Of a stretch of DNA of 64,000 nt, positions 26,401 through 64,000 are shown in pieces. The stretch lies in contig NC_090698.1 of NCBI RefSeq assembly GCF_040954835.1, forward strand, positions 4,028,501 to 4,092,500. Reading direction: 5' to 3'. The notes under the pieces were generated by a model, which saw only the letters and a program-made list of their open reading frames with translations, was not told the DNA's origin and made no database searches. The position numbers and the translations under genes were made by a program. This DNA is from Lepisosteus oculatus. Its lineage: Eukaryota > Chordata > Actinopteri > Semionotiformes > Lepisosteidae. The number at the start of each line of letters is the position of its first letter. Position 1 is the stretch's first letter.

Positions 26401-27856
26401 GCATGCCCAGCAGGTATTGGCAAAGGGTCAGGGGTGATGACCTTTAGCTTGACCCCCTACCTGCCCCCCCCAAACCCTCTACAAAAACAGGGATCCTGTT
26501 GATTCAATTAAACAGAAAAATAAACGGCAATGATCAAGCACAATAGAGCGAAGCTGAAAGGGGGAGACAGGGGGTGGTGGGGGTCAGGGGGAAAGGGATC
26601 ACAGTACAGGGCAAGGCACAAAGACAGCAAAAGAGAAAGAAAAATTGCAGTTGCTGTGGAGGAGAGACAATGGGGGCATTCTTGCAGACAAGCACATCTC
26701 AGTAGATCTCAGCAGCTGACTGAGGAAATCAGCTGGGCTGGAGAGCTCTAAAAGAGCTGTGTGTGTAAGGTCTTCAAGGGTTTCTGGACTAAAGCGTAGT
26801 GATGGGTAAAGCCGTAACCTGGGAGTGAATCCCTTTCATATCTATCAGCAAATTGAGAAAATGAAATCTGCTTTGAGTTAAGAGATCGAAACTCTTTTAG
26901 TGTCCTTGTTTTGACATTATCAGTGAGCAGCTTTGCAAAAGATCAACGCTCAAGTCAGTATGCAACTTTTTTTCTACTGATGTGGGGATCAGATTTAAAT
27001 TTTATGCTCAGATTCAAGAAAAACTTTCTTTTGTGTCCTACGGTTACTTACAGACATACATTACAGTTTACCTGCCTAGTCCTGAAAGAAGAAAAGCTGT
27101 CAACCTAGTTTACTGTGATATTAAGTAAAACAGAAGTGTTTTATTTAAGCAGTGTTTTTTCTCAAATAAAGTCACACACAGAACTGCACAATACCATACT
27201 CTAAAACAGGTTAAAGATGTTGCTGGGGGACTTTTAGTTGAAATCGTCAACATTTTCAAAAATAAAAAAAGAATGAAAATCAAAAGAACAACTTTGTTGT
27301 CACATGTTTTATTTTGAGTATGAATGTGATCTTTGGGACACTGACCCTAGAGGTATTATCGGCCAATGTGTAAACTATCTTCTGTTTGGTTTTTAAAAAA
27401 TGTTTAGCTCAAGGTATTTCTCTTTCTCAGGTATGATGGTTTCCAGATCTGGAGTGATGGAGGCTACAAAATCTATGAATTCTATTAAATAACAGACTTT
27501 TCCACATCAGAAGATGACTCAAGCGAAACACAATAATTTGAAGAAGGAAAGTAAAAGCAGAATAATGAAAATCCAGTTTTAGTTTTGGGTCCAACCATTA
27601 CTCTTTTAAAAAGCATGTGTATATAAAAACACTCAGTTCTTACTTTTTACAATGTTTTTCGGCAATTCAGTTGTAAATCTCTGATTGGATCTGTCAGTTA
27701 GCACTGTCATCGTAACACTCTGCCACAATATAGTTAGTTAGTTCAGCACTGTTGGCACACTGCTATCTCAACCAGTGCAGAAGCGAAGCACATTTATTGG
27801 AAAAAGAAAATAACCTTCTGTTTTAACTGAGGTGATTTCTTTCGTTTAACACCAAC
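23500..27856. other. Noncoding stretch with an enhancer-like segment
   Basis: No coding exon or nameable repeat is seen. The segment at about 24.44-24.80 kb is rich in homeodomain (GTAATTATT, CAATTAGG), forkhead-like (GTTTAC, TGTTAAACA) and E-box (CAGCTG) cores and looks less degenerate than its flanks. It is a candidate conserved noncoding element, but this cannot be shown from one sequence. Confidence 0.35.
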
Positions 27857-28179
27857 ATCTGAACACAGATGGAAAGGGGGAAGAACTGAAATGAGGATGT
27901 TGAGATGGATTCTACAGATTTCAATGAAGGATAAGATCAGAAATGAAGAAATCTGTAGACGATGTAGGGTGGTGGATGTGGCTGAGGTGGAAGGTAACAG
28001 AGGAAGAGGCAGGCCTAGAAAGAGATGGATAGATTGTGTGAGAAAAGATATGGAGGTATGTGAAGTGAGTGAGGAAGATGTGCTCGACAGAGACAAGTGG
28101 AGAAGAGCAACCAAAGCAGCTGACCCCAGGACAGTCTGGGACTAAGGCTGTGGCAAAGAAGAAGATCTGAACACAGATG
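27857..28179 (+). mobile_element. 5'-truncated RTE-like LINE fragment with target duplications
   Basis: An open frame of 84 codons (27891-28145) reads RMLRWI...KDKIRNEEI...GRGRPRKRWIDCVRKDMEV and ends KWRRATKAADPRTVWD. This is the C-terminal tail of fish endonuclease-reverse-transcriptase LINEs of the RTE kind. It ends in a short GAAGAAGA tail. The insertion is bounded by the direct repeat ATCTGAACACAGATG (27857-27871 and 28165-28179), so about 293 bases were inserted. Compared with the usual tail, about 25 residues between the RNEEI and GRGRP parts are missing in frame. The intact duplication and open frame point to a fairly recent event. Confidence 0.75.
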
Positions 28180-43581: not shown

Positions 43582-46476
43582 TCACTTGTTCTGGCAGCTG
43601 ATGGAGAGCCCCTTAAGCAGCACCCCGCGGCGGGGGGAAGGTGGCGGCTGCTCGGGGAGGGGGGCCCCAGGCGGGTCTGGCCGGCCCTCGTGCTGGGGCT
43701 GCGGTGCTGGAGCCGCTGCGCCGGCCGAGTTCTCGCTGGCGGGGGGCAAGCCCTGGTGCACCTCGAGGAGCGAGACCGTCCAGGAGGGGAGGGCGGACTC
43801 GGGCTCTGGGGTTTTGGAGGGGCTGGGCACCAGGCCCTGGGCCCGGGCCTGCTCCACGCCCCGCAGGATGTGCACCAGGGCGTCGTGGACCTGCTGGCTG
43901 GTGGAGGAGTCCCTCTCCCTCTCTCCCTCCTTGGCGGAGGGCCGGGTGGCGTTGGAGAGCTGCTGCAGGACCTCGATCTGGCGGTCCATCAGCCCCAGCA
44001 TGCTGCAGTGAAAGGCCCTCTGCTCAGCCAGCTGCTCCCCCAGCCGGTGGTTGAGAATGGTGAGCTGCTGCAGAATCAGAGTGCTGATGTCCTCACAGGT
44101 CCCTGCAGGGATACCGACAGAGACAGGAGCAGGGAGCAGTGAAGCCCTCAGTCTTAGAGTTACTTTAGAAGAGCAGCCTAAGTTACTCAGCTTTCAGTTT
44201 TGCTTAGGAAGTAATGCAGAATGCTGTGAAGCCTAGAGGAACGTGTGGTGAAACCCTTCTACTTATTTCATCATAAAGATCTTTCTGCAATACACTCTAG
44301 AACATGAAAAACATATTAAAGGAACAGTTAGGGGAGATTTTCAGATCAACAAGGTAGGAGCAATCCAGTTAAAGTACCCATGATACAAAGCACACTGAAT
44401 TTCCCGTGGCGTTTCATAGCAAATATGGAAGGCCCTCCTGCTGTGACTACTGAATCAGAAACAAACAGCTCCATTCATTAAACTGTCCAGCTTTACACGA
44501 TACAGACACCTGGCACTTGTTCAAGCTTTTATATTTGTGACTTGGATTATCTACAAATTCAATCTCATTCTTCCACAAAAACACAGGCAGGGGCATATGG
44601 GCATCTTGGAAGTCTGTTTGCCTCAAGACTGCAAATTACCCATCAGCACGTCCACCTGGGTGCAATGCAGGTGACCCGACACTTACAACTGAACCTGTAT
44701 TTTTTTAGATGCTTCTCCGAAACTCACCACAGTGAATCACACAGAACACAAAATGTCCAAGGGCTGGCGGCACATCTCCATGAAGCCGGCCTGGAACTCA
44801 CCCGGAGAGGCTCTGGGACAGGTAGGATCTCCGGTGGGATCTCGGCTATGCGCAGAAGGCAGTGAGTGTGGTTCGGTTTTCACTGGATACAGGTACTCCC
44901 CCGACAGCCCCAAGGTCACCACCTCCTCTCCCGTGTCCCAGGGGGCAGGGGCAAAGTCCGTGGGCTCTCCCCGATGCTCCTTGCTATCCTCACTGTCCCC
45001 CTCCATCCTGCTGGTAAAGTTTTCCCAGGCGACTGCAGAGCAGGGGTGAGGAACATCACCTGGGAGAACAGAGATAACCAAAGACACAGCTTCATCGGGA
45101 AACCCTGCCCTGAGCATGGCACGGGATTAGAGACCTTCAAGAATACAGTTCTGCAACTTTTAGAGGGATACATGGATTTCAACTCTATCCTTTCAACTGC
45201 AGAATTAAAGATCAATGTGACCTGCTTTCCCAAAAGAAGGTCTTTCTAGACTGATTCTCAAAAACTACAAAGGGTTTAAAGATGCAAAAACCTTGCTTTC
45301 AAAGATTGTCAATATATTAAAATCTTCATTTTGCAAGGCTTAGTTTTGGATGGGCAAAAGGAGAACCGGGTGCATGAATGTTTAGCTGGAAAATGTAAGC
45401 TGGTAATCACTGCTAAAGGATGGCTCTACAAAAAGCGCTTCTCAGATTTCAGCTGCATGGTAATGAGGTAGGTAAGTTATTTAGGCCCACACACAGGAAG
45501 TACAGGGGTCAGAACAACACTGCCTGACTCCACAGCTTCCGAGTCGAGGTTCTGAGATATTGTTTTGAGTCTCTCTATTTCCGACTCATGAGTATCTTAC
45601 GAGTAACTTTAGTACAGAGCAGTAAACCTGGGAGCGAAAGGGGAATCCCAGATGATGCAGCAGCAGCAACACAGAAGAGGAAAAGATCTTCCCAATCTTT
45701 AATACATCATTTAGAAGGGTAGGAGAATTGAACATGGTAATATTGAATCGTGATTCTCAAAATTCTATTTTGAGGATGAAAGCGTAGTCCAGAATTGCAA
45801 TATTTTAATTAGCCATTTATTTGATCTGCCAAAATCGCAACACCTTTTCCAGGTCTTAAACTGCTTAAATCTGGAGGACCCCCGCCCTTAAAGACCACAT
45901 GTGGACGCCCCTGGCACGGAATTATGGGACACTCTAGCCAGTCTGAACAAACTGCCCCTTTCTGAGTGGGGGAGCAGTTAGCTGACAGTGAAGGCCGGGA
46001 CCGGTGTTGCGAATTTTGGATGGCCAGAGGGGGTCGGGTTGGTCAGAAGAGGAAGAGGCGGCAGTACTGTCGGTGTGATCCTCCAGCTCGGACGTAGACA
46101 GCACCACCAGATTTCCATCCCCCACTCCGTCCAGCTGGCCGGGCCCCTTGGGCCTCCTGGCCAGCATGCGGTCCAGCTTCTTGAAGTAGCGGAAGGACTC
46201 GATGGCCGAGAGCCTGGCGGCGGCGCTGCGGTAGCCGGCCGTCTTGATCTTGCGGTACTTGTGCTTGAGGCTCTTCCAGCGGTTGCGGATCTGGTTGACG
46301 GTGAAGTGGATGTTGCGCTTGGCCAGGCTGTGGCGCAGGCGGCGGAAGTGCGAGTCGTTGCGCTGGCGCTTCTTGTCCAGCTCGCGCACGAGGTCCAGCT
46401 CCTCGATGAGGGCCAGCATGGTGAAGGTGTCCGTCTCGGTCCACCACTTGTTGGGCCTCCTCTCGCTCAGGTCCAT
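43582..46476 (-). CDS. Myb/SANT-like (trihelix-type) DNA-binding protein, unrecognised family member
   Basis: The modelled exons are about 46002-46476, 44802-45059 and 43582-44102. All junctions are phase 1 and the total is about 417 residues. Exon 1 carries a Myb/SANT-like domain (about residues 9-95): KWWTETDTFTMLALIEEL, FRRLRHSLAKRNIHFTVNQI, then RNRWKSLKHKYRKIK, with tryptophans placed as in Myb_DNA-bind_4 proteins. A basic linker and an acidic/serine stretch follow. The middle exon is acidic. The last exon has a leucine-rich helix (LILQQLTILNHRLGEQL, MLGLMDRQIEVLQQL) that may dimerise, then a proline-rich end. This suggests a nuclear sequence-specific regulator. The exon 1 donor (G|GTCCCG) is weak. 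If it is not used, the frame stops at 45934 as a one-exon protein. An upstream in-frame ATG (46587) has poorer context. I cannot assign a known gene name. Confidence 0.65.
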
Positions 46477-46599
46477 GGTCTCCACTCTCCCGCCCGCCAG
46501 CCTGCCCACCCTCCTTCTCCTCCTCCTCCTCCGGTCGTCGCCTCCGCAAGCAAGCCCTCTGGGCAGCGGGGGCCGGGTGGGCTTCAATGCAAACAGAAA

Positions 46600-48200
46600 C
46601 AGGCCTGGTGAGGTGCGCCTTGCTCTCTGTCTCCCATCTGCACTGAGCTCGAGGGTCCTCTACCTGCACTCTATTACCTCTGCAGAGCAGACCTCACACC
46701 TTTTCCCACCATGTTCCCTACAGCAGAGAACATGGAAAGCAATACACTGCGCTACCGTCACCTTCTCCTGATGTGATGCTGGCTGAAGCGATCGTGTGAA
46801 CAGGCAGAGGACCAATCCTGCCCCCCCCCCCCCTTTTTTTTAACCTGCAACTGCAGTGCAATGCCTTTAACACCTGCTGCTTTTATTTTCACAGACAAGA
46901 CAAACAGACAAGGCCGAGCGGTAGCGCTTCCCCAAAAGCGCAGGGGAGCTACCACGGGGCGAGTGGACTTCCCAAAGTCTCTTCCAAACGAAAGGCTAAG
47001 CCCGCTGTCCTGCGAGTGACGAACAACAGGCTTCTGATGCTCCTGTGCAATTTGAGAGGTAAGACAGAAGGCAGGCAGAGTTACAGGACGTGAAGGCGCT
47101 TTCATTATTTATAGCATTATCGGCACAAGGCGTCCGAACTCTAGGGGTTTCGTCAGATCATTTAACAGCACAGTTTGCCTGAGTTACTGCATGCGTTGCC
47201 GACATCAAAAGAGACATCTCACACGCCACAGTTTTTACACACAATAAGCCGTCTCAAAACAGAAATAAGCAGCAAAACAGCTCTAGAACCTAAAGCCGTT
47301 TCTAGTGTAGAGAACAACAAGATTCGGTAAAGGAGACTGTGCAGGAGTAAAGTCAAACAGAGTTGCAGGCTGAGTCACACATCAGCAATACTACATAGAT
47401 ACTACACAGCAGAGCAGGCTATGTTAATTGCAGCACTGCTGAAGAACGTGTATGCAGTGAACAAAGAATAATTATGAGCTTGAGGCAACATTTCTACAGT
47501 TTATCCAGGTACATATCTAGTCAGCTCAATTAAAGGTAATGCTTATGACCCGCACGTTGATTCAGAAATGTCCATACTTACCCTATCGTTATGTTTAAGG
47601 ATTTAGAATTAATATCAAATTTTAGAAATACGCTCACCTGCATAGTGTACAGGCAGGCACGACTGTGCAATTACAAAAACACTCTGTTCCTTATGCTGCC
47701 TAATTTAGTGCTCGGTTACCCTTCCGGAAAGTTAGACCTCAATCATTCAGATGGCAATACACTAATAATGTCAGGCCAATTAAATATATCCCATATTCCA
47801 GTTATGGCGATAAAATCACGCATAGAAAAAACTGACCCCGAACACAACCTTCCTAAGATTATCTCTTCGCTAGATGTGGGCATTCTTCATCATAAAACAC
47901 ATTACAGTTTTGGTTTCCATACAAATACAAACTCACGATACATGATCATTTTTTCCTAATGTTATATTTAACTGAACTGTCAAGACGTAAAACGCTCCAG
48001 TGACCGTATTAGATAAATATAGAATAGGTGTTTATAACGTAGCCATGGAAAAAAAAAATACATGCACAAAACACAGCATTAAAGGGCCTCCTCTCTCCGT
48101 ATTGCTTTTTAGTGGTTAAGAAAGTGAAAACGCTTACAGTTATAAATAATACTTCATCCCTTCACTGGAACTTACGCAGCGTCTAGGTTTCGTCTGCGTC
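46600..48200. other. Intergenic stretch before BLOC1S3
   Basis: It contains a C14/T8 run at about 46820-46841 and an open frame of 122 codons (47591-47959, plus) with no recognised family, codon signal or splice context. It probably includes the promoter of the Myb/SANT-like gene, but no clear elements were identified. Confidence 0.35.
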
Positions 48201-48376: not shown

Positions 48377-49044
48377 TATAGTACCTACAGATACATTTTT
48401 TTTATTTTAAGCTTGCTTTATTTATGTTTTCGATATTTTGTAAGCTTGGATTCTTTCAGCCTTCTTAAATAGTTCCTACCGCTAGATCTGAAATAGGGCA
48501 TTTTGAAAGTTAGCAGTTGGTGACGATACAGCAGGCTTGCAGTTGAAATCAAACTTTTAAAAGGTGCTTCGCATTTGCACTAAGCGCAAATACTGGAAAC
48601 ACGTAGCGTTTGCAAATGCGAATCTCCAGAAGCATTGCATCTTTAAAAGTCTCTTTTAATTGGCACCCACGACTAGCATGTCGCTGTTTTAGGATATTGA
48701 TTGAAGGCATTCTGTTCATTTCCAGAGGAAGGGCCGGTGCGTAAAAACTTAAACCGACATTGCCTTTTTGTATTATGCATCAGGCAACAGAGCTCGGATT
48801 CTGCTACCTCCTCTTGCTCGTCACTAGAGTTTCAATGCAAATAGATTATTTTGGTGAGGAAACACGGGAAGCGCCATCACCACTGACTGCTAGTTAAAAC
48901 ATGGTACAGTAACGCGCCACTCGGCTGGAACGCAGCGCGCTGTGGCATTGCAGCTTCTTTCTGCTCTGGTGACAGTTCTGTGTGAACCTCTCGACGCTGT
49001 TTATATACTGTATGTTTGCATACTACCAGGTGCAGGCAGAGGTA

Positions 49045-49638
49045 ATGGCCAGTAACAAATACCAGACGGTCGTGCAGGGCGAGGCTTCTGAGACGGACTC
49101 GGACGAAGAGGCTTACATTACCTCCCTGTCTTCCTCCTACCCCGTCGCGGCCGGGGTTAAAGTGCTCGGCGAGGCTTCGGAAACGGACAGCGAGGACGAG
49201 GCCGGGGGCGCGACGAGACCCATCGAGGTGCGGGCGGCCACCGAGGACGTGCAGAAGGACCTGCCCCCGCTGATAGTGATCAGAAACCCCCCCGACAGTC
49301 CGGTTTCGGCCGCGGAGGAGAAACCGGTGCTCAGGCTGCGGCAGGGCGGGCGCTACAGCACGTTACTGCAGCAGAAACTGCAGGAGAGCAACGCCCGCCT
49401 GTGCGGCGACGTGACCCAGACGGTGAGGCAGGTGTACCAGAACGCCACCAAAGAGATTCGCCTGGCCACTGCTCACCTGAACAATTCCCAGAACGGCATC
49501 ATCAACGCCTCGCACAGCATCCGCCTTGTCCTGGAGGACCTGAAGTCCGTGTCGGAAAAGATCGACATCATCACGAGTTGTAACCTGCTACCCGACATCA
49601 GAATAAGCACTCCCCAGCTCGGACTTAAGGAGTGCTGA
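49045..49638 (+). CDS. bloc1s3: BLOC-1 subunit 3
   Basis: 197 codons in one exon (human protein 202). BLOC1S3 is a subunit of BLOC-1, the cytosolic complex needed for lysosome-related organelles such as melanosomes and platelet dense granules. The N-terminus has two near-identical acidic motifs, GEASETDSDEEA (12-23) and GEASETDSEDEA (42-53), matching GEATETDS/GEAAETDS in the human protein. Then come KDLPPLIVIRNPP (71-83) and a long helical, coiled-coil-like region (about 98-180), with RLCGDVTQTVRQVY and ASHSIRLVLEDLKSV, ending SCNLLPDIRIS as in the human protein. The start is set at 49045 because the protein then begins MASNKYQ as the family does (human MASQ). An in-frame ATG at 48982 lies upstream of an acceptor-like TACTACCAG and is probably not used. 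The neighbours TRAPPC6A and NKPD1 match the human locus. Confidence 0.93.
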   Translation: MASNKYQTVVQGEASETDSDEEAYITSLSSSYPVAAGVKVLGEASETDSEDEAGGATRPIEVRAATEDVQKDLPPLIVIRNPPDSPVSAAEEKPVLRLRQGGRYSTLLQQKLQESNARLCGDVTQTVRQVYQNATKEIRLATAHLNNSQNGIINASHSIRLVLEDLKSVSEKIDIITSCNLLPDIRISTPQLGLKEC

Positions 49639-50115: not shown

Positions 50116-50470
50116 TTAATAATAATAAAAATTGCTTACATTCACATAGCGCTTTTCTGGACACTCCACTCAAAGCGCTTTACAGGTAATGGGGATCCCC
50201 TCCACCACCACCAATGTGCAGCATCCACCTGGATGATGCAACGACAGCCATAGTGCACCAGAACACTCACCACACATCAGCTATCAGTAGGGAGGTGAGC
50301 AGATTGATGAAACCAATTCATAGATGGGGATTATTAGGAAGCCATGAATGGTAAGGGCCAATGGGAAATTTGGCCAGGACGCTGGGTTTACACCCCTACT
50401 CTTTACGAGAAACGCCCTGGGATTTTTAATGACCACAGAGAGTCAGGACCTTCGGATGAGACGTAAAATT
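50116..50470 (-). repeat. 5S-SINE family (SINE3/DeuSINE-like), copy 2, body and tail
   Basis: Read on the minus strand: CCTGACTCTCTGTGGTCATT (shared with the 23.4 kb copy), a body of about 240 bases with CATCCAGGTGGATGCTGCAC, then a tail CTGTAAAGCGCTTTGAGTGG, GTCCAGAAAAGCGCTATGTG and an ATT-rich end. The tail is that of fish DeuSINE-type elements. The 5S head is absent. At the 5' edge, 20 bases (CCTTCGGATGAGACGTAAAA) lie in the opposite orientation to the rest, as if inverted during insertion. Confidence 0.7.
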
Positions 50471-50682
50471 AGATATTAGATTGTAATATTAGATCACAAC
50501 TTCCTCTGCTTTGGATTGTGATGTTACTGTGGTTTGGGCTGTCAACCAATTAGCTCAACAGTAGTGACAGAGTAAAATGACACAAGAACACACCTTTCCA
50601 GTGAGTTAATTCCATGGCAAAGTGTGCAAGGACACATTCATACTGTTCTTCCCAAGGATACAGTGAGCCCTGGTTATAATAT

Positions 50683-50900
50683 AATAATAGGAAAAAAACT
50701 TTTATGTAGAGCCTTTTAAAGTAGCTTCTCGAGGTGCTTTACAGTAAGAAAAAAATGACAGGAGATAACAGTTATTAGAATCAAGGGTCTTGAGAACAGT
50801 AGAAAACACAAAGAGGCAGTTAAGTGAAAGACCAGGAGGGTGCTGTAAGGAGGTGTGTTTTTTGTGAAGGTGGTGGCTCTTTTCCAAGAGGAGCTAAACA
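50683..50900 (+). repeat. Interspersed-repeat fragment with an AAT-rich start
   Basis: TAATATAATAATAGG, then a TTTATGTAGAGCCTTTTAA to TCTCGAGGTGCTTTACAGTA segment. This resembles the opening of a dispersed fish repeat with a (TAA)n TTTATATAGCGCCTTT start and GGCGCTTTACAGTA. The downstream border is not clear. Confidence 0.4.
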
Positions 50901-51029
50901 GAACGACAGTAAAGCTGAGGCCTAAGAGCTTTATGGTATACAATGAATATTTTCCTATAAAAAAAGCCATGTTCCTACCTGGTCAGAAAAGATGGGTATG
51001 CTCTAATCGTGTTCTGATGGGGCCGACGC

Positions 51030-53455
51030 TGCTCTGACTGCCAGGTGGTGTAGGAAGCTGGGAGGTCTGCAGTGGGTATTGTACACTGGCTTTCTGTTGC
51101 TGTTGTTTTCATGATTGCAAACTGCGCTTCTGCTGTCGAGGTGTTTTTGTGAGTAAATGAGGATTTGGCAATAAAAGACTCACTACTGGTTAGAATTTGA
51201 AAATAAATACCCCCACTCCTGTTCTAAAAAGTGCATTATGGGAATTCTATTCACTCCTGTCCCCAGCACACTACCAGCCAGATGGACCCAGTGTGAAGAC
51301 GACAGGTTTTCCACACATCATGCAACTGGCTGACAGGGGACAAACCAGTCAGGTCGGCCATATGTGCTGTGCAGTATGTGCCCACCGCAGTCTCCAGCAG
51401 CCAGAGGAACACATTTGTGATGACAGGCGTAGCCTTTCTCCAGAATAGCTGGATAAAAGGAGATCGGAAGACTAAAGCCCATTCTGAATGGAGTCAGAGG
51501 AAGGGAAGGCTTATTCATAATTGATTTTCTCAAATGTTTTCACCAGCACTCTGGGACATGCCAAAAAAATGACCTCGGTTAGTCACCCTTTAAGCTTCGA
51601 CTCCTGTTTGCAGTAAACAGGTTTTATTCAAGCCCAGCTTCCTGAGGCTTCATCTTGCGGAGAAGAGCACAGGACAAGGGGAGGGACTTTCCTCGGCAGA
51701 GGAACAGGATGTGTTTGTGCTGGGGTCATTGGAAATGCAGCGTCCATCCAGCTTTTTTCGAACGGCTTCATCCAGTTCAAGGTCGCAGGGGAGCTGGAGC
51801 CTGTCCCAGCAAGCAGAAATGCATCATTTTGTCTTTAAAAATTTTAGTCTGGTCTTGTTTTATATGTATGTTTTAACAAATACTCATCTTTATTTTTCTC
51901 TTCAGTTCTATTGTCTCCCAGAGCATGAAATCAGTTTCAATCTGTGAATATTTTTCAGAGTGCGCCAAAGTTTTTTTTTCCAAAACAGTACCCCGAATTG
52001 TACCCGAAGTACCCCAAACCCCAAATTGACTAAATCAGTAACATTTTTGAGAGTACCTAATACTGTCTGAACTCATAGATTACATTGAAATGCTAAGTAA
52101 TCCTTGAGAGTGTAATGCGCACAGGTGAAGCTTGTGAATAGACTGCTTTGTTACCGTGCTCAGATGAGGCTTCGAAATCTGGCAGTGATTGAGTTGCCAT
52201 CTGTTCCTGCAAGCTGCTGCCACTTTTGCAGTGGGCATGACTCATGTTTCCAGAGGACTGTAAAGGTATAGCGGACCAGGCCTTTTCCTCAGTGTGATGT
52301 GAGATGGGAAGGAAGACCTTCGGTGCATTGCTGAAGGCAACAGCAGACCTGGCTAATACAGACTGTGTTACTGCAGTCACCGCTGGAGCTCCGCCACTGC
52401 TGGGCACATGTGATACATTCCAGAACACTGTATCGGATGCAGCTCGCTATTAATCAGATCACATGCAGGATTTGGGCAGCTACTGTGGGCAGAGAAGTAC
52501 CATATCTCTGCAGACACCTGCAAACACTTATTGGAATCGACACCTTGACATGCAACTGTAATTGCCACTGAAGGTAGACTCATCTGCAATTACTAGTAAA
52601 TTCCTTTATTAGTAATTTTTAGTAGTATGTATATATAAGTACTGCCACATAAAACTGAAGCCCAGGTGCAAAACTGAGAAACTACAGAAATGATTAATGG
52701 AGAGGCATATGGTCAGAATAACAAGGGAACATGAAAAAATGTAAACTGGAGCTTGTGAGTATACTGGAAGACTGAAAAAGACAACTTTTTATTAAAAAAA
52801 GCTTAGTTAATTTCAGGTTCAAAATTTTATGGAGTGAAATGTTGCATTCAATATAAGCATATTGCAGCTCAACAACTTGCCCAGGACAACACCAAGTAAT
52901 ACAGCCTGTAAATGCTTTGGACTGTCGCAATGTTTCATGCGATTTTGACAGAAAAACAATTTCCAAGAGACCCAACTGAGTGTGATGTGGACTGCAGTTT
53001 GTGTGAGCACATAAGCACTGAGCTTTTTTTTTCTCTTTAAATAAAAAAAAATGGCAGTTCAAAGCACTAATCAAATTTCATCTGTGGCCAGACACAGCGA
53101 TCGATCATTTTATGGCTGATTCTCATGAAATCAATCAAATGGATGAGCGCCAATCTCCCTGACACTGGCAGGCGAGGTCAGGGGGAAGGACCGAAACTAT
53201 ACAGTTTAAACTCCTGAGTATTCAATTGGGAGGCCTCAGATTGACCATTTTTATGTCAGCCCTGTCCCCCCTCAAAAAAAAATCCCATTTCAATTTTGGG
53301 CATGCTTGGATTTAAAATATAAATCTAAGAGACAATGCTTGTATTTATTAAACTGTTTGTCCGTATTTACCACCTGTGTATGACATTTGTTGCTTTGCAC
53401 AATTTCAATCTCGTTTGCTTGCACATTCATTATTCTCATTTTGGTGTCGTTTACC
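51030..53455. other. Intergenic stretch between BLOC1S3 and NKPD1
   Basis: No exon was recognised. It contains one short dispersed-repeat piece (51741-51830) and AT-rich unique-looking DNA. Open frames up to about 126 codons show no family resemblance. Confidence 0.35.
51741..51830 (+). repeat. Dispersed-repeat fragment (CCATCCA...GGAGCTGGAGCCT type)
   Basis: CGTCCATCCAGCTTTTTTCG, then CAAGGTCGCAGGGGAGCTGG and AGCCTGTCCCAGCAAGCA, the start of a very common fish repeat (TCCATCCATTTTC...GGTCACGGGG...GGAGCCTATCCCAGC). A longer but diverged piece of the same repeat lies at 61418-61640. Confidence 0.55.
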
Positions 53456-53457
53456 TC

Positions 53458-53549
53458 TTATACTGCAATGTCAGTGGATGAATGCAGTTTCAGTGTGCTT
53501 GCGCTGTGTTGCCCAGGCAGATTCTCCTTGGAACTAACCGGGAATTTAG
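53458..53549 (-). pseudogene. Likely displaced 3' coding end of NKPD1 beyond the insertion
   Basis: Immediately on the far side of the LTR-like insertion, the minus strand stays open for 30 codons in the phase that the NKPD1 last exon had before the insertion point, then ends in TAA (53458-53460). This is host DNA now separated from the gene by about 2 kb of transposon sequence. It probably was the original C-terminus of NKPD1. That it was translated is an inference from phase and position only. Confidence 0.4.
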
Positions 53550-53788
53550 GTTGATTGTCACGGACGTCCAAAGGGACTAACCGTGGGGAGCAGGAGAGCA
53601 GAAAAAGACCCGTATGCGTAGCGGCGAGACGGGAAAAAGGCCCGGGCTCATTAGTGCAAAGAGTTCAGGAATGCCGTATAGAAACCTATGCCCTCAGGGA
53701 GCGGACGTGGGGCGCCCTGGTGCTAGGCGGGTCTCAAGACATCCGAACGTCAATACTGAGCGAGGACAGAGTGCAAGACCCGGAAATA

Positions 53789-55418
53789 CAGTGCCTTGCG
53801 AAAGTATTCGGCCCCCTTGAACTTTTCAACCTTTTGCCACATTTCAGGCTTCAAACATAAAGATATAATTTTTTTATTTTATGTGAAGAATCACCAACAA
53901 GTGGGACACAATTGTGAAGTGGAACGAAATCTATTGGATTTTTGAAACTTTTTTAACTAATAAAAAAATGAAAAGTGGGGCGTGCAAAATTATTCGGCCC
54001 CTTTACTTTCAGTGCAGCAAACTCACTCCAGAAGTTCAGCGAGGATCTCTGAATGATCCAATGTTGTCTTAAATGACTGATAGTGATAAATAGAATCCAC
54101 CTGTGTGTAATCAAGTCTCTGTATAAATGCACCTGCTCTGTGATAGTCTCAAGGTTCTGTTGAAAGCGCAGAGAGCATCATGAAGACCAAGGAACACACC
54201 AGGCAGGTCCGTAATACTGTTGTGGAGAAGTTTAAAGCCGGATTTGGATACAAAAAGATTTCCAAAGCTTCAAACATCCCAAGGAGCACTGTGCAAGCGA
54301 TCATCTTGAAATGGAAGGAGTATCAGACCACTGCAAATCTACCAAGACCTGGCCGTCCCTCTAAACTTTCAGCTCAGACAAGGAGAAGACTGATCAGAGA
54401 TGCAGCCAAGAGGCCCATGATTACTCTGGATGAACTGCAGAGAACTACAGCTGAGGTGGGAAAGTCTGTCCATAGGACAACAATCAGTCTTACACTGCAC
54501 AAATCTGGCCTTTATGGAAGAGTGGCAAGAAGAAAGCCATTTCTCAAAGATATCCATAAAAAGTCTTGTCTAAAGTTTGCCACAATCCACCTGGGAGACA
54601 CCCCAAACATGTGGAAGAAGGTGCTCTGGTCAGATGAAACCAAAATCGAACTTTTTGGCCACAATGCAAAACGATATGTTTGGCGTAAAAGCAACACAGC
54701 TCATCACCCTCAACACACCATCCCCACTGTCAAACATGGTGGTGGCAGCATCATGGTTTGGGCCTGCTTTTCTTCAGCAGGGACAGGGAAGATGGTTAAA
54801 ATTGAGGGGAAGATGGATGCAGCCAAATACAGGACCACTCTGGATGAAAACCTGTTGGAGTCTGCAAAAGACCTGAAACTGGGACGGAGATTTATCTTCC
54901 AACAAGACAATGATCCCAAACATACAGCAAAATCTACAAAGGAATGGTTCACAAATAAACGTATCCAGGTGTTTGAATGGCCAAGTCAAAGTCCAGACCT
55001 GAATCCAATCGAGAATTTGTGGAAAGAGCTGAAAACTGCTGTTCACAAACGCTCTCCATCCAACCTCACTGAGCTCGAGCTGTTTTGCAAGGAAGAATGG
55101 GCAAGAATTTCAGTCTCTCGATGTGCAAAACTGATAGAGACATACCCCAAGCGACTTGCAGCTGTAATCGCAGCAAAAGGTGGCTCTACAAAGTATTAAC
55201 GCAAGGGGGCCGAATAATTTTGCACGCCCCACTTTTCATTTTTTTATTAGTTAAAAAAGTTTCAAAAATCCATTAGATTTCGTTCCACTTCACAATTGTG
55301 TCCCACTTGTTGGTGATTCTTCACATAAAATAAAAAATTTATATCTTTATGTTTGAAGCCTGAAATGTGGCAAAAGGTTGAAAAGTTCAAGGGGGCCGAA
55401 TACTTTCGCAAGGCACTG
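53789..55418 (+). mobile_element. Full-length Tc1/mariner-family transposon
   Basis: 1630 bases flanked by the TA target duplication (53787-53788 and 55419-55420). Terminal inverted repeats of 213 bases (53789-54001 and 55206-55418), beginning CAGTGCCTTGCGAAAGTATT, differ by only two bases, about 99% identity. CGGCCCC-type repeats at the inner ends of the inverted repeats echo the outer ends, giving the inverted-repeat/direct-repeat layout known in fish Tc1 elements. It encloses one uninterrupted transposase gene. Near-identical ends and an open gene indicate recent insertion. Confidence 0.95.
54180..55199 (+). CDS. Tc1-family transposase, DD34E, open frame
   Basis: 339 codons, the usual length for Tc1 transposases, uninterrupted. 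The enzyme cuts and pastes the element at TA dinucleotides in the nucleus. The N-terminal bipartite DNA-binding region has a first helix-turn-helix (about 8-48, KKISKASNIPRSTVQ), a GRPSKLS AT-hook-like linker (58-64) and a second helix-turn-helix (about 65-115). The catalytic core shows D152 in SDETKIEL, D243 in QQDNDPKHTA and E278 in DLNPIENLWKEL, with 34 residues between the last two, defining DD34E. The glycine-rich HGGGSIMVW box is present (186-194). The start codon lies about 180 bases inside the left inverted repeat's inner end, as usual. Activity cannot be judged from sequence alone. Confidence 0.95.
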   Translation: MKTKEHTRQVRNTVVEKFKAGFGYKKISKASNIPRSTVQAIILKWKEYQTTANLPRPGRPSKLSAQTRRRLIRDAAKRPMITLDELQRTTAEVGKSVHRTTISLTLHKSGLYGRVARRKPFLKDIHKKSCLKFATIHLGDTPNMWKKVLWSDETKIELFGHNAKRYVWRKSNTAHHPQHTIPTVKHGGGSIMVWACFSSAGTGKMVKIEGKMDAAKYRTTLDENLLESAKDLKLGRRFIFQQDNDPKHTAKSTKEWFTNKRIQVFEWPSQSPDLNPIENLWKELKTAVHKRSPSNLTELELFCKEEWARISVSRCAKLIETYPKRLAAVIAAKGGSTKY

Positions 55419-55467
55419 TATATAGCTCAAGGGAAAGAGAGGGACAGGAAGGACAGCAGACCGGAAA

Positions 55468-58400
55468 CTAGGGACAGGACAGAGAAGGAGCGCCCTCTGG
55501 CTGCAGAGGGCGTGACAGTTGATGGCCCAGCGGTGTGACACTGTCGGTAGTTGCGGACACAGGCGGTGGTTTCACACCCAAGAAGTGAATGCTGAAAACA
55601 GTCCACTCTCCCAGAGACATACGCAACACTTCCTTGATCTCGCTATTGTTGCTGTAGATCAGCGCCTCGCCGTCCAACTTATTCTGCTTGATGGTCTCAG
55701 CATAGGAATCATGGAGGTTTAGTTTTTTTATCTGGAAAAAACAAAAGCAGAAACACATTCATCATGGCCCTAATATGCAGTCTCTGCCACCTTCGAATGG
55801 AGTATTAGTGCATGGATCTGAAAAATTAAAACTGTGTAGTTAGATGAAATAAATCCATTCGATCTACCCTTCCTAAAGGCTTTTTTTTTATTAACTGTTT
55901 AAATACATAAGTAATAGCAGCAAAAAATACTAGGTAAATAACTATTTGATGTCACATCATCTGTAAATTTAAGTTACGCGGACAGCTGATAAATAAGGAA
56001 AGACCCCTTATGTCACATACTCACATTGGGCCCCAAATGTAAAAGCAAATCTCACCTATGATTGACTCAAGCCTGAATGTGCATCAGGCCATAATACAAT
56101 GTTGTATTCGCCTTATCTTTGTACAAAGTGTCATGATTATATTCTGACACGGGTCTGCATTTGGTGTAAATTATACGTGCAGTATGTACGGTCAGACTCC
56201 TGTTTCAAATGACTGTACCAGGTACCTTCCACCATCCAACCTGCACAGCCCGGACTAGAGTGGTACACACGCCGTCAAAAGGCCAGACCCCTGCCACAGG
56301 GGTCTCAGATGTTCTTGCAAATCCCACAGAGTGATAACAGAATCTTCATGTGCTAGTGGACCTGTTACACACGTAGGGTTGTCATCTACAGCAATAAATT
56401 CTGTATGTAATCAGCCCTTTACACAGGCTAGATGTGAAATGCCTTATTCGTAGTTTCTGTGCATGAATATCGGAATCCCAGCCTTCATCATTCGGACCAA
56501 CTAATAAGACTCAGAGGAGTTTTAGAATGAAAACTGGTATCAGAACTAAGGATTCAGAAATTACTGTTTGGATAAAAAGCGAATGGTATGTTATATGTCT
56601 ATAGTTTGTCCCCTCTATGTCGGCTGTGTCTGTGAGAGGTTTTGCTATTTACCTCTTTGCACACATCGTCCATGTCCATCTTCAGCACCGATCTCAGTGG
56701 CAGAGGGGCGTGGCCCGTCTTCTTCATGGTATCCTTCAGGCTGGCGCTCCCTCGATAGATGGCCAGCTCCTTCCTGATGGAATGGTCGAGGTTGACGGTG
56801 AAACACCTGAACTTGTTAGCGACCCTGATGGTGAGGGGGAAGTCGACCTTGAGAAACCTCTCAAACAGCTCGGGGTCTCCGTCCTGCTCCAGGAGGCTGG
56901 CGATCTCCTTTCGGATCATGTGCAGCTCGATCCGTGACTCGCTGAAGACCTCCCACAGCGTCTTGCCGTCGTCGATGCCCCCGCCCTGGTCAATCTCTGC
57001 TCTCTGCTCGTCATCCTCCACGCACTGCAAGATCCAGCTCAGGCGACAAGGCCACTGGTTTGCCAGGACCACCCAGGCTGCAATGGTGTCTGGAGAAGAC
57101 AGCTCGGCTTCTACTGCCACCATAATGGTGGCCGACACCCTAACGGAGTTGATTATTCTCCTCATGCTTATGCTATTATCCCCGATGCATTCACAAAGGC
57201 TTCTCTTATTGCAGATGGCATTCATAGCTTTCTCAAAGACACTTTCAATCATCTCCAACCTGTCAGCATCAATGTGGTATTTGTCACATTGCGAAGTGCT
57301 ACTGCTCAAAAGATTCTGGAGTTCATTTTGCGAGCCACTTTCTACAGACGAGTCATCCTTGGGGCATGGAGTTTCTGCTATACTAATTTCCATTCTTTCA
57401 TTCTCATCCGGAATGCAATCTTCCGGGTTGTCTGACTGGCCCCTGACGAGATTTTTAAAAACGTTCAGTTTGGAAGTGTCGCAGAGTTCAGGTACGGTGA
57501 AGGGCAAAGTCACAATGCGATTTAGGAACGCGTAGCCATTCTCCTCCGAGCTGTGATAGCAGCCAGCACTTTCCACACACTTCACAATGATCCGAGGATT
57601 GACAGCCAGCAGGGAAATGAATGGGCTTTCCTCATCGGAAAGTAAGATGTTTAGGGCGTCTAAGACCCCCACGATTTTCTCCGGAGTGCACCGCTCCAGG
57701 TTGGTGATCTGCAGGACCACGCGGATCTTCCTCCTCTCATAGACTTCCATGAAACGGATGAAGCTGGAGAGGACCTCCATCTCCTTCTTCACTTCGTTCA
57801 TGAAGCCCAGCTGGCTGCTCATTTTGGAGCTGTCCATCGCCTTCCTGATGTTGATGTCCTGGTTAAACATGAGGTTCTTCCCCAGCAGAATGGTGAAGCG
57901 GATGGCGCCTGCGGCTGGGAGCCCCAGTGTGGCGATGGCGAGAGACTCTACCACGGCAATACCATCTTCCCCTGGTTTCCCAGCGGGCAACCCGACCACT
58001 AACATGAGACCAAGTAACGCGATGACCCCAGAGAGCACAGCAAGGCAAACCAACCAGAGAGGAACGCAGCAGACCCTTTTAGCTCTCCACTCTCCCACAC
58101 TCTCCTGGATGACCTTCCTTCTTACATTTTCTGTGTGTTGAGCTACACGATACACACTGAGGACCAGCCTCCCAAAGCTCTTCTGGAAAGCTTCACAGAG
58201 TCTGATTGCCAGCCCTGCCCACAGCAGGTCACTCCCTGCAAAGTGCCAGGCGCTGAACTCCACAAAGATATAACGGACATTCTTCCTCTGCTGGTGCGCC
58301 GTGGTCCACACAGGCCAATAGAAAATCATCTTCACCAAAACATTCAGCAGACTTTGGATGGAGGGCTGATGCGATCTCGGTGGGGGTTGTGCCCTATAGT

Positions 58401-59340
58401 CCTGCTCTCTCTTCTTGGCTTCTTTGTTCACGTGAGCTACGCGGAAGATAAAAGCCATATCATCATTTGAGGTGCATTAGCAGACATCAAGCAAAGGCTT
58501 TGTTCTATCTCATTGGACACCAGTCCCATTTATGACTTGCCATGCCAACTCCAGAACAGCAGCAATTCAGTTTATTGGCAGCATGAATCTGCACAGCTCT
58601 GACAATGCAGCAGGCAACAGTTACTAGAGCTCTTCCACTGCCTAAGATTAATTAACTATAACTTGAGGTCTTCAGGGATACTGATGGAAACAGTACTTTC
58701 CAGTATCAGAGAAATATTTTTTTAAGCAGAAGACAAAAGCAGAGTTTCTATTAAGAAAGCAGGTGATGCACAAGCATGCAGAAGGACATGAGGCGGAAGT
58801 TTTGAGGACTTATTGTCTGCCACACATTTTGAGATTTTAAAGAAAATTCATTTACAATCTTCCTGAATTATAAGTCCGACAATTCATCTATCAACACAGA
58901 ACTTGACAACGCAAACAAGGATGATCCACGTTAACATGTTTTGGCTTGAAGTGACTGTAACAGGTCTGGGTCTTTGTGCTTAGTAACAGTAAGTTACCAA
59001 ATCATTCCTGTTAGGTTTTTAGCTCTAAATCGAAATAATTTAATTAGACCTTTTTAATTAAACATAGTTGAGCATTAGGGGTGCAATTAAATTATAAAAG
59101 TAACTGACAGCTGAGTCAGAAAGTGCCAGTTAGGAGTCTTGAGTGGTCCTGCACGCCCTTAACTGAGAAGCCTGATGGAACAGGAAGGCCCTGGCTAACA
59201 AGGGGACGCACTTTCAATACTTCTCCTGAGCAGGCGGAGGCGGGTTCGACAGGACGAGTACAGGCCTATAGTCGCAGGGGGAGCCACTTTTGTCAGGGCC
59301 TGGGAGAGGCTGTAGGCATAGACTGCATCTGAAAGCTGAC
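55468..59340 (-). CDS. nkpd1: NTPase KAP family P-loop domain-containing protein 1 (partial, N-terminal exon missing)
   Basis: The exons seen are 59212-59340, 56653-58436 and 55468-55731, joining in phase 1 then phase 0 to at least 724 residues. The KAP family are membrane-associated P-loop proteins, and NKPD1's own role is poorly known. The first visible exon has ALTKVAPPATIGLYSSCRT, the position of the P-loop but without a GKT. The main exon has FSAWHFAGSDLLWAGL (about 103-118), two membrane segments inside the NTPase fold (about 164-192 and 205-229), and VVLQITNLERC (about 281-291) at the Walker B position. The last exon gives a SAM-like domain (IKKLNLHDSYAETI, VLRMSLGEWTVFSIHFLG). The final 16 codons and the stop come from the LTR-like insertion. 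Human NKPD1 lies beside TRAPPC6A and BLOC1S3, as here. The exon with the start codon was not found. Confidence 0.88.
55732..56652 (-). other. NKPD1 last intron
   Basis: Bounded by donor GTAAAT after CAAAGAG and acceptor TTTTTCCAG. AT-rich; no repeat or RNA gene recognised inside. Confidence 0.6.
59212..59340 (-). CDS. nkpd1: NKPD1 exon with the degenerate P-loop
   Basis: 129 bases, phase 1 at both ends, acceptor GTACCCGCAG and donor GTGCGT. Translation gives AYSLSQALTKVAPPATIGLY followed by SSCRTRLRLLRRSIE. The segment aligns with the start of KAP NTPase domains, where canonical members have GxxGxGKT. Joining to the main exon gives ...RSIETHVNKEAKKRE without a phase break. Confidence 0.75.
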
Positions 59341-61400
59341 CTGCGGGTACAAGACAGAAATGAGAACACAGCCTCCTGAAACTGCATGGAGAATAAAAAC
59401 ATCTGCCTCACTGCGCCGACGATGAGCGCAACATTTCAACCAGGGGGTCAAATCCAAATCGTGCAGTGCCAGAATGGGCGCTTTTTAAAGATTTATCACC
59501 AGCTACAGACAAAGATTATGGCCAGTTACACACAGAGTAACTCCACTTGAAATCTTAGATTCTTTTTGTTCACAAATGTATTAGGGGAATAATCGCCTTA
59601 CACACACAAACTAAACACAAAAAATGTGCATTCCATGTCTATAGTAATCACGGAGAAGAACACCTTCTTAACATGTGGGATTGTCCCACAGATTGTCAAC
59701 CAGAAAACTACTACTGGTTGTTAAAAACTAGTTATTTTAAAAAAAAAACCACACACACAACAACATAACATCACAGCGATCCAATCGGGGACAGGTGTGT
59801 CAGTATTCAAACACTGGAGGTAGATGCAGTTACTACAACACTTCAGCGGTTTCAAGAATGTTTCAGAAAAAGGAAAGTGAAAGAAGCACAATTTTCTGAC
59901 TTGCAAGAGACTTGTAAGAACGGTAGGTGAAATTTCATTTCCAGGCTTGTAGCTAGGAAAGCTAATTAACACAATAGCTAATACACTCTTTTTATTATCT
60001 AAGTACAGTAGCAATAGGTATTCACCATCTGTGCCTAGTGTGTGCTCACAAAGTGTTTGTGTTACCAGAAGAACCGAATTAGGGTTACATGATGGAATAG
60101 TGCAAGATGATACCTTTAGTATTCATTCTCAGGGCAGTCGTGTGACTGGTTTACAGTGTCCCAGTTTCTCCGTCGAAGTCCTGCGAAGCACATACACTTC
60201 AGACCCCTGTTACAGCTAGAAGTACTAACACTTACAAGAATGCACAGAGAAAAATTATCACATTATATTTAACGAAACAAAGGAATATATGCCACACCCT
60301 GCAAGACAACCTATGGTAAAGGTAAAAATGTACTAACGTACTTTTATGCGCCACTTAAAGTTTCATTCCATATCGAAAGGTAAAGAAAATAAAAGAAACA
60401 CTACAAATTGGCTGTATAGCCTCTTCAGGTATGAGTCTTACTTACACCTGAAGAAGACTCCACAGCTGAAACACTGTGTCTCTTTTTTTTTCCTTTCCGC
60501 AGGGAATAAATGTTTATCTGTAGCCAATGCATGCTGACGCAGCTCCCTACTCAAACAAATTCATTTTATATCCAGGATCAATTTTGAATTGATTCTCTCC
60601 TCAAGGTCTGCTGGGATTCAGCAACATGAGGCGAAAGAAAGGACCGAAGTCTAGGCAGATCATTTTGTTTTCTGGAAGAAAAACATGTAGACGGTGATGG
60701 AATTCCCTTCTAAAGTACTCCCTTCCTAAAGGCTATGACATGCACCCAAAAATCTCTTACGAGTTCAGAATTACCTGAAGTACCGCAGGAAACAGGAGCC
60801 ACGTTTCAGTGGAGGAAAACCAAAGCCTGAGTGATCTGAAACAACCCTGAGCTCAACAGGCTTCATTCACAGAACTTTGGACAAGCAGGTGTGGCGCTGC
60901 AATAAAAAGACCAAACAGTCATAAACCTTCTATATTCCACCAATAATGGCAAACCGGGGAATGACTTCTGAATAATCTAATTTACTCCTTTTATGACTCT
61001 TTTATGATAGATGAACCAACATTTAAGTATTGGAACGACCTTGAGAATATTCTAGTTGAATCAGAAATAATACAAGATGCAAGATGGCGATGGGCGAATT
61101 AAAAAGCTGGCACAGTCTGGGGCATCCTTGTCCTGGGATAAAGGAAACAAGCTTTTAGGCTGGATTCTATCCATTTACTACGAGTGCAGCCTCTCACAAG
61201 AGCTTACAAATGTACAGAAACTCCAGTTCCAGTGCATGGAGGGTTGCCACATGGTCAGTGTCCAAATGACATGGCTTTTTGTACGGTATGGTGAACTTGC
61301 CAGCTGCGCTAGACCTCTTACTAGCGCTTTCTCATTGTATCTCTCAGCTACAGATCCTGCTTAAGTATGACCACTTACCCAGTCCGAGTGACAGCGGATC
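59341..61400. other. Probable NKPD1 upstream region, nothing assigned
   Basis: The NKPD1 5' exon and promoter should lie here or further right. No ATG-bearing exon ending in phase 1 could be recognised. A minus-strand acceptor-like TTTTTCTTCCAG at about 60685 opens about 30 codons, but without family resemblance. Confidence 0.35.
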
Positions 61401-61417
61401 CAAATATGGAATACATT

Positions 61418-61640
61418 GTCCATCCACCCATTTTCCCAACCTCGTCATCGGGGCAGCCGGAGCCTCAAGCAATGGGGAAAGTGAGGTTCACCCTGGACAG
61501 GTCGCCAGTCCATTGCAGGGCACACACTGACACACTGACACACACACACACACACACGGGACAATTTTCTCAGATGCCAATTAACCTTCTTGCATGTCTT
61601 TGGAGTGTGGGAGGAAATCCGGGCACAGTGTCATGTGAGG
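61418..61640 (+). repeat. Dispersed fish repeat with internal CA microsatellite
   Basis: TCCATCCACCCATTTTCCCA, CGGGGCAGCCGGAGCCTCAA, GGACAGGTCGCCAGTCCATT, a TGACACAC/CA run (61524-61558), then GCCAATTAACCTTCTTGCAT and GTCTTTGGAGTGTGGGAGGA. This ordered string is a very common repeat in fish genomes. The family name is not certain. It is related to the piece at 51741-51830. Confidence 0.65.
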
Positions 61641-61702
61641 CTGCACTGTTCGCTGTGCCACTGTGCTTCCCAGTATACATTGTCACTGATGCATATTGTA
61701 AG

Positions 61703-61940
61703 GCATACGGCCTCCATTGATTGTGAGAGCCGGCTTACCAGAGCGGTGACGTCACCGCCCTTCCCTGTGGATGGCAGGGACCGCAGCCGCCAGGCTGAAG
61801 GGAGACTTCCCTTTGGCTCAAGAGGCTGGGTCCCTGCTGAGTGATGCCGGAGGCCTGGGTTTGAGTCCCCGACGGTGGAGGGCCGACCTGATGTGGCAGT
61901 GGTGAGGGCGCCCATGTGAACCCCCGAAGTGTTACAATAT
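61703..61940 (+). repeat. tRNA-like SINE, copy 2
   Basis: Matches the 3008-3250 repeat over its whole length with roughly 15% difference. The A-box-like motif is TGGCTCAAGAGG (61814-61825) and the B box GGTTTGAGTCC (61859-61869). The GGTGACGTCACC palindrome (61745-61756) is unchanged between copies. It follows the dispersed repeat at 61418-61640 closely. Confidence 0.7.
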
Positions 61941-61949
61941 TATAACTGG

Positions 61950-63480
61950 GATCACACAGAGGGGTTAAGAAGCATGGGTTAGTGGTAATATATTTTTATT
62001 TGGGGGCTAAGGGGTGGTGGGACATTGTGCAGTGGGTGGCTGACTTGACCATTCAGATGGAGTCAACATATCCAGCTTACAGACACCATGCATTGCCCCA
62101 TCATATGCTGGGATTTCAGGGATCTGTGAAAAGGAAATGGGTGTTTTACATCTAGAGGGGAGAGAGAGAGAGAACACTGAAGTATATGTCCACCTCGACA
62201 CACACGCTTATTTAAATCAAAAACAAGGTCAGGTTTCTGAAAGCTCGCTAACGATTTCGACTCGGTCCCTAACAGCTGCGCTCTTTCCTCAGAATCCAGG
62301 AAGTCAGCTGGTCTCGGCATTTGAAGGTGGTCTCTGGTGATTCTGATCATGGACTCCCTCATCTCGCCATACTAATGAAAAAGTCTAAAAAAAGCCAGGT
62401 AAGACAGAACACAGAGGTCATAAACGAAGGAAATCACCGCCTATTTACGTCACTTAAAAAAAAGAAGCCCGTATATCGCGGTTCTTACTTTCAATTTGGT
62501 TTTATGAAAAACCCCAACATGTTTTATATTTGAGGAGCTTATCGGTTGCGAACAAATGAATAACGTTTTCTAACATATAGATATATATTTAAAAAGTATG
62601 TAATAACGGATGGAGTGGAATAAACTCGATAATTATTAAGTCTTTTCCTTTAAATGACACGCTACGCGCAGTTCGGCATAGCAGCTGTAGTTTCATTTTT
62701 AAAACACTTTAAGTGCATTTTCACACTCCCTAAAGAAGTATTTTTAATTTTAAAACAGACAACATAGAAATAGTTCGCGGTGATAACGTCGAACACAGCA
62801 CAGTGTTAAAGTAGGTTTTTGTCAAAAGCAGAAATTACAACATATACAAAACATTTGGGGCCACTATAGCTAGGAGGAATTTGAACGGAAAATAGACTAT
62901 AAACTGTACTATAAACACTGAATGTGTAGCTGACCATCTGAAGGGACTGTGTAAAAATTCTCAAGATAGTAACTTACATCCAAAAATGTCGTGACGCAGT
63001 TGAGGCCAACCATAACTATTAACGTGCTCTTTAAAACACAGGTACAACTAAAATCTTGGATTAAAAACACAGAAAACCGGGGTCTGAAGAAAGCCAGCTG
63101 CTTAAATGCTATACAGAAGCTTTTACCGCTTCACTGTAAATTACAGTAGTCCAGAGATCGTTGCTCAATCGGTTTTAACAAAGTAGTAAAATTCTAAAAA
63201 TAGCAACAAAAAATTACAAAAGCTCATTAAAATGAGGTTGTGAATTTAGTTCCTGGAGTGTACTAAACAGCAGTATATATGCTTGAACTCTCAATATCTT
63301 TTGAGGGAGGAGACTTGCCTCTCCATGCATCACGTGAAGTTATGAATTAGATCACAGACGTAACCTTTTTCATTTCTCCAGAGCTCGACTCAGTAATGAT
63401 GGGTTCAGTAATGAAATGCATGCAGCTTAGATTGGGTGCTGCACATTAAGGTGTCTGAAGTGGGTCCCCTTCTGTATATA
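61950..63480. other. Noncoding stretch
   Basis: AT-rich with a short GA run (about 62158-62172). A minus-strand open frame of 99 codons (62063-62362) starts MRESMIRITRDHLQMPRP. It has no recognised family and is left uncalled. Confidence 0.35.
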
Positions 63481-63499
63481 AAGGAAATATTTGGGGTCT

Positions 63500-64000
63500 G
63501 CTGCAAGAGACAGAGATAGAGGAGTTCATTAGCCATAGTGTGTGTACATACAGTATACAGTACAATGGGAATCTTATTCGTGCTGTTCTCTCAGGACATG
63601 CACAGCAGACAACGCCACACAATGTCGACAGTACACTACAGAACAGAACATAATAAACAGTGACAGTATGTACAGACAGTAAAGAAACAGAACAATCAAT
63701 ACGTGGTAGCTAAGTCAGAAGTGCAGAGGTGCATTGAATTCTGAGGCATTGCACAGGTAGCTGTTCTTAAGGGTAGAAGGGTGCAGTAGGGTAGAAGCCG
63801 TTCTTAAGCCTAGTGGTCCCTGCTTTAATAGCGTGGTACTGCTTGCCAGAACACATGGGGCAGCACAGTACAGTACGTGCTGAGGTATCCTGAGTGATGG
63901 ATTGGGCTTTATTGCACCAGCGGATGGTGTGAATATCATTGTTTGATGGTAAGGCATTGCCAGGTCATGAAACTAGAGTGCGGACTGTTTAATCCTGTGT
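63500..64000. repeat. Dispersed fish repeat running off the right edge
   Basis: TACAATGGGAATCTTATTCG, TGCTGTTCTCTCAGGACATG, GTAGAAGCCGTTCTTAAGCC and TAGTGGTCCCTGCTTTAATA, then GATTGGGCTTTATTGCACCA. This string resembles a dispersed repeat frequent in fish (…GTTCTTAAGCCTGGTGGTCC…). No coding frame was recognised and the 3' border lies outside the window. Confidence 0.45.

Follow-up and report, generated by a model that had tools for sequence, protein, structure and literature searches.

Introduction

A protein end that a transposable element brings into a coding sequence is a known and ordinary kind of event. In human TAF8, for example, a short isoform arises at the edge of an Alu element, as described in an excerpt of the report (PMC12871804). 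Among fish elements, the Tc1-like transposons of rainbow trout have complete reading frames in seven of nine cloned products, according to an excerpt of the study (PMC1192797), and among proteins KIDINS220 (ARMS) is described, again in excerpt, as carrying a KAP-NTPase domain, a SAM domain and a C-terminal PDZ ligand (PMC4632323). In this study we analyse a stretch of 64,000 nucleotides from Lepisosteus oculatus (NCBI RefSeq assembly GCF_040954835.1, contig NC_090698.1, positions 4,028,501 to 4,092,500; this whole stretch is called the window, and positions are counted from its first letter). It contains a gene that is likely NKPD1, of the KAP NTPase family, whose last coding exon runs into an insertion. 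On the best reading, a stop codon and 16 residues shortly after the SAM-like domain come from this insertion.

In the account that we favour, with a probability of about 0.72, a 330-bp element resembling a long terminal repeat (LTR) would have inserted first, into the terminal NKPD1 coding exon directly behind the SAM-like domain, with a duplication of GTTGAT. A Tc1 transposon would have inserted later, at a TA within the LTR-like element. Translation would then pass through 71 host codons of the exon and meet a stop after 16 element codons, which would stand where a native tail of about 30 codons had been. Nonsense-mediated decay would spare the mRNA, whose 3' end may lie at a poly(A) signal within the inverted repeat of Tc1. 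None of the literature matches listed for precedents, NKPD1, fish Tc1 and KIDINS220/KAP describes this case, and none of those listed for NKPD1 names the gene in its title or abstract, so that it seems little studied there.

The last coding exon and the insertion

NKPD1 lies on the minus strand. Its large penultimate coding exon (56653..58458, taken from an in-frame ATG at 58458 that serves as 5' bound in the part examined) has 602 open codons, matches PF07693 (KAP P-loop; E=3.7e-18, model positions 47-241 of 293), includes the start of the SAM-like domain and ends at a donor, GAG|GTAAAT, that scores 8.36 on a matrix which, for all donor scores given here, was not trained on fish. The last coding exon starts after an acceptor CAG called by eye just before 55731 (55732/55731). 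Its host part (55518..55731, including the duplication) holds an open frame with the second part of the SAM-like domain, followed by GVKPPPVSATTDSVTPLGHQ.

The insertion is bounded by two exact 6-bp copies of GTTGAT, at 53550..53555 on the left and at 55518..55523 on the right. Between them lie 1962 bp (53556..55517), of which 330 bp are left when Tc1 is removed. This LTR-like element begins with TGTCACG and ends with CGTGACA, which are 7-bp inverted termini of the TG...CA type. TGTCAC...GTGACA-like ends are frequent in fish LTRs, and from its ends and duplication the 330 bp would most likely be a solo LTR. The remainder has a TATATA at position 232 of 330. Reading from the acceptor, the occupied frame gives ...SATTDSVTPLGHQ, then LSRPLQPEGAPSLSCP, and stops at a TAG (55470-55468). 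The element-encoded C-terminus with its stop spans 55468..55517 on the minus strand and has 16 codons, the first of which shares base 55518 with the duplication.

The match to the domain is unaffected by the insertion. PF23307 (SAM_KIDINS220) matches the last exon with the element tail alone at E=4.5e-8, and with the end of the preceding exon joined it reaches 39.6 bits when the native tail is attached (E=4.7e-10) and 40.0 bits for the element tail (E=3.6e-10), the cut-off being 27. The match spans the same model positions, 8-71 of 90, whichever tail is attached. In the last exon it stops at residue 49 and the insertion comes after residue 71, that is 22 residues further. As the 19 unmatched model positions would run out about where the insertion begins, the insertion is at or just past the end of the domain. 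The first-pass annotation of this DNA had described the duplication at 55518-55523, a frame that enters the element and stops after 16 codons at 55468, and a conserved domain that was kept. On rereading, all of its coordinates were correct, the frame reads as it said, and the PF23307 match is untouched.

The nested Tc1 transposon

The insertion is two elements, with Tc1 nested in the LTR-like one. A complete Tc1/mariner transposon occupies 53789..55418 on the plus strand, which is 1630 of the 1962 bp, and is flanked by TA duplications at 53787-53788 and 55419-55420. Its inverted repeats of about 220 bp contain an inner and an outer repeat at a spacing of 186 bp and differ from each other at 3 of 216 positions (98.6% alike), or at 5 of 220 in a longer comparison. 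The transposase (54180..55199, plus strand, antisense to NKPD1) is open over 339 amino acids with the DD34E residues D152, D243 and E278. It matches the Pfam families HTH_SB, HTH_Tnp_Tc3_2 and DDE_3, aligns with the SB100X catalytic domain 5cr4 over 228 residues (E=7.6e-88) and is assigned to IS630 by NCBIfam. A search of viral_contigs (viruses) gave 12 pattern matches to the transposase, none of them confirmed, which means little in such a collection. A 23-letter Tc1 end was not found in the literature text; of six shorter words, one from Tc1 occurs in three papers. Given the likeness of the inverted repeats and the open transposase, Tc1 is probably young.

The young look of the locus also bears on a further alternative, that the inserted allele is rare or heterozygous, or that splicing bypasses the insertion, and that the protein is not lastingly affected. 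Besides the features of Tc1 just given, the duplication is unmutated and the host frame on the far side of the insertion is intact with its stop, all of which suits a recent insertion. Splicing around the element is made less easy by the best donor-like site of the occupied exon, which is weak (3.74). This possibility overlaps with the account that we favour, and as the whole story it is very improbable indeed.

Inserted or host sequence

The main competitor of an LTR insertion is that the 330 bp are ordinary host sequence. NKPD1 would then always have ended in LSRPLQPEGAPSLSCP, the only insertion would be Tc1 in the 3' untranslated region (3'UTR), and the repeat and the ends would be there by chance. 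We consider this unlikely, while it is the chief rival, and the evidence falls on both sides. When the 2.33 kb around the site, with Tc1 set aside, were shuffled 1000 times with dinucleotides kept, 3 of the shuffles held a 6-bp duplication around TG/CA ends that are inverted over 7 bp and lie 100-1000 bp apart, which argues against chance. Several observations weigh the other way. When the whole window was shuffled, a structure of this kind turned up in 8 of 60 cases, and in the raw window two other, unrelated pairs no more than 12 kb apart equal the 7-bp level (one further, longer pair lies within the inverted repeats of Tc1 itself). The duplication and the ends are convincing at this site but, as the whole 64 kb had been looked over, no proof alone.

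Base composition is divided in the same way. The 330-bp remainder has 57% GC and a CpG observed/expected ratio of 0.82, where the neighbouring 330 bp to its left have 39% and 0.39, and a CpG-rich segment fitted independently of the ends starts at 53539, only 17 bp off the called left end. Such a shift speaks for an inserted element, but the right edge of the best segment is at 55672, inside the exon, and the 330 bp continue the CpG richness of the exon. Composition therefore gives no independent support to the right boundary of the element. Also on the side of host sequence are the 16 element codons, which score 0.08 per codon and so stand level with the SAM part of the exon, and the lack of a second copy of the 330 bp within the window. 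Counting against an LTR, neither strand of the 330 bp has an AATAAA or ATTAAA. Exact pieces of the LTR ends were absent from viral_contigs (two pieces) and genome_contigs (one piece), which hold viruses and prokaryotes, where none were expected. The 30 open host codons beyond the insertion, in turn, count against host sequence, with such a frame open by chance in 22% of cases. The LTR-like identity given in the first-pass annotation is supported by the ends, the duplication and the composition, with no second copy in the window, and 1630 of the 1962 bp are Tc1 instead.

Two smaller observations belong to this element. By eye, a perfect 9-bp hairpin, CGCCCTCTG-GCTG-CAGAGGGCG, lies at 55491-55512 at its right end. 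A short word from the LTR-like sequence matched a foot-and-mouth disease paper, which we took as chance. Rfam gave 0 matches at gathering scores.

The candidate native tail

With the flanks joined, the host frame reads ...GHQ, then PKFPVSSKENLPGQHSASTLKLHSSTDIAV, which is 30 codons, and ends at a TAA (53460-53458). This candidate native C-terminus (53458..53549, minus strand) agrees with the first-pass annotation, which had found the far side open for 30 codons in the pre-insertion phase. An open frame was rejected as proof of coding, since 17,386 of 79,060 30-codon windows (22%) are free of stops in DNA that is presumed, without proof, to be noncoding (9500-42000, 50200-53000 and 59500-64000).

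Codon usage does not favour the tail. It scores -0.37 per codon against a median of 0.55 for coding windows, which were taken from three training genes (979 codons) and scored on their own codon table. No 30-codon window of these genes scores as low, and 37% of the open noncoding windows match or exceed the score of the tail. The same exon has 0.08 per codon in its SAM part and -0.21 in the part after it. As even the SAM part, which Pfam supports, reaches only 0.08, the training genes are ill suited as a standard for the last exon. The case for a native tail is largely one of deduction: in a terminal exon, the frame must have run on to 53460-53458. A native tail of 30 residues would accordingly hold only for an ancestral exon that was terminal. 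The earlier claim that such a tail was replaced stands as to its open frame, and is weakened by codon usage unlike that of coding sequence and by a donor-like site four codons in.

This donor-like site, CCG|GTTAGT (G at 53538), leads to another alternative, in which the insertion is real and the ancestral exon was spliced here to a further 3' exon, so that the lost end was a different and maybe longer one. The site scores 6.44, compared with 8.36 at the donor that ends the large exon; of the 2080 GTs on the minus strand of 9500-42000, 6.6% reach at least 5. The codon usage of the far-side tail would suit this explanation as well. Against it, the score matrix was not trained on fish, and of the four acceptor-like sites (at least 80% pyrimidines) between 53538 and 49636, which open phase-0 frames of 65, 36, 16 and 3 codons, the two with the longest frames lead to no Pfam family. 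We regard a spliced ancestor as improbable, distinctly more so than host sequence. A second donor-like site, GAG|GTAAAC at 53454 (minus strand; 6.71 on this matrix), follows immediately after the far-side TAA, and for this reason the native 3'UTR, too, might have undergone splicing.

One class of PDZ ligand is hydrophobic-x-hydrophobic at the C-terminus. The far-side end, ...DIAV, would fit this pattern, although four residues make it a lead only. The fullest version of our account, a fixed and expressed NKPD1 in which a PDZ-ligand-like tail (...TDIAV) was swapped for a 16-residue LTR-encoded end and the 3' end of the mRNA comes from the Tc1 inverted repeat, is in our view unlikely.

The transcript end

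Past the element-supplied stop, the nearest AATAAA in the direction of transcription is at 55248-55243 (55243..55248, minus strand), 220 nt past that stop, and is followed by GTGGGGCGTGC; a variant, TATAAA, comes earlier, at 55343. This AATAAA belongs to the inverted repeat of the nested Tc1 and not to the LTR-like part. Judged from these motifs, the NKPD1 mRNA may end there. Since no intron is known downstream and the stop would be in the terminal exon, nonsense-mediated decay is not expected. On the far side, an AATAAA at 53344..53349 (minus strand), 109 nt past the far-side stop, is a candidate for the native poly(A) signal. It would equally serve if the 330 bp were host sequence, with a 3'UTR from 55467.

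Gene identity and other features of the window

The name NKPD1 is likely from the combination of a KAP domain, a SAM_KIDINS220 domain and a BLOC1S3 neighbour (48973..49635, plus strand; PF15753, E=2.6e-67), near which human NKPD1 lies too. Other searches added little. The spliced SAM-like region had seven weak matches in the PDB (best E=0.071), and NCBIfam gave the KAP exon only QatA, whose cut-off of 600 bits is far above the 19 bits reached. For the large exon, no match was confirmed in viral_contigs or genome_contigs (viruses and prokaryotes), with 0 pattern matches in the former and 24 in the latter. We rejected a decayed pseudogene remnant in view of the 602 open codons of the preceding exon, its scored donor and the acceptor seen by eye.

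Upstream, a minus-strand frame at 59198-59407, ...YSLSQALTKVAPPATIGLYSSCRTRLRLLRRSIE, could by eye be taken for the N-terminal KAP exon; its Walker A motif would lack the usual GK[ST]. Pfam has no match for this frame, and no G-x(2,4)-GK[ST] motif occurs on the minus strand of 58477-64000 among frames of at least 25 codons.

Elsewhere in the window, Pfam identifies two genes on the minus strand: a Myb/SANT-domain gene at 45937-46656, which we take to be MYPOP-like, and a two-finger CCCH gene at 7783-8910, presumably ZFP36-like. A plus-strand frame at 27831-28142 with RGRPRKRWIDCVRKDME looks to us like the end of a polymerase of the long interspersed nuclear element (LINE) type, and it has no Pfam match.

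Discussion

If the insertion is fixed and expressed, two nested transposons would have reset the stop codon and the 3' end of a conserved gene while leaving its domains untouched. NKPD1 would then have tolerated the change and would be an example of the freedom of C-terminal tails to change. Otherwise, the locus is one more exonic transposon insertion. The first-pass annotation spoke of transposon exonisation, which is a loose word for this case, because the insertion lies inside an existing exon and no new exon was made.

The Tc1 element has in common with the fish Tc1/mariner DD34E elements (Sleeping Beauty, Passport/PPTN and those of rainbow trout) the Sleeping Beauty-type HTH and DDE domains, the DD34E residues and the TA duplication, and nothing unusual was found in it relative to them. 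Its inner and outer repeats are spaced as in the inverted repeat/direct repeat (IR/DR) layout, which is that of Sleeping Beauty. The vertebrate solo LTRs share with the LTR-like element the TG...CA ends, the short terminal inverted repeat, the 6-bp duplication, the length of 330 bp and the TATATA, whereas the 330 bp differ from them in having no AATAAA or ATTAAA, and no second copy or internal region in the window. Compared by eye, the outer end of Tc1 differs at 1 of 24 bases from a rainbow trout Tc1-like transposase primer in the excerpt of PMC1192797, and it has TACAGTGCCTTGC in common with the PPTN primers in the excerpt of PMC1939997.

Of the proteins, KIDINS220 shares its KAP and SAM domains with NKPD1, in which a short tail follows the SAM-like domain. 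As an event, the closest comparison is with human TAF8, where, as in NKPD1, a transposable element gives a coding sequence a new end. The excerpt of PMC12871804 describes for TAF8 an intronic element that acts together with intronic polyadenylation and yields an extra isoform, whereas in NKPD1 the element lies within the last coding exon, where it would take the place of the only known end.

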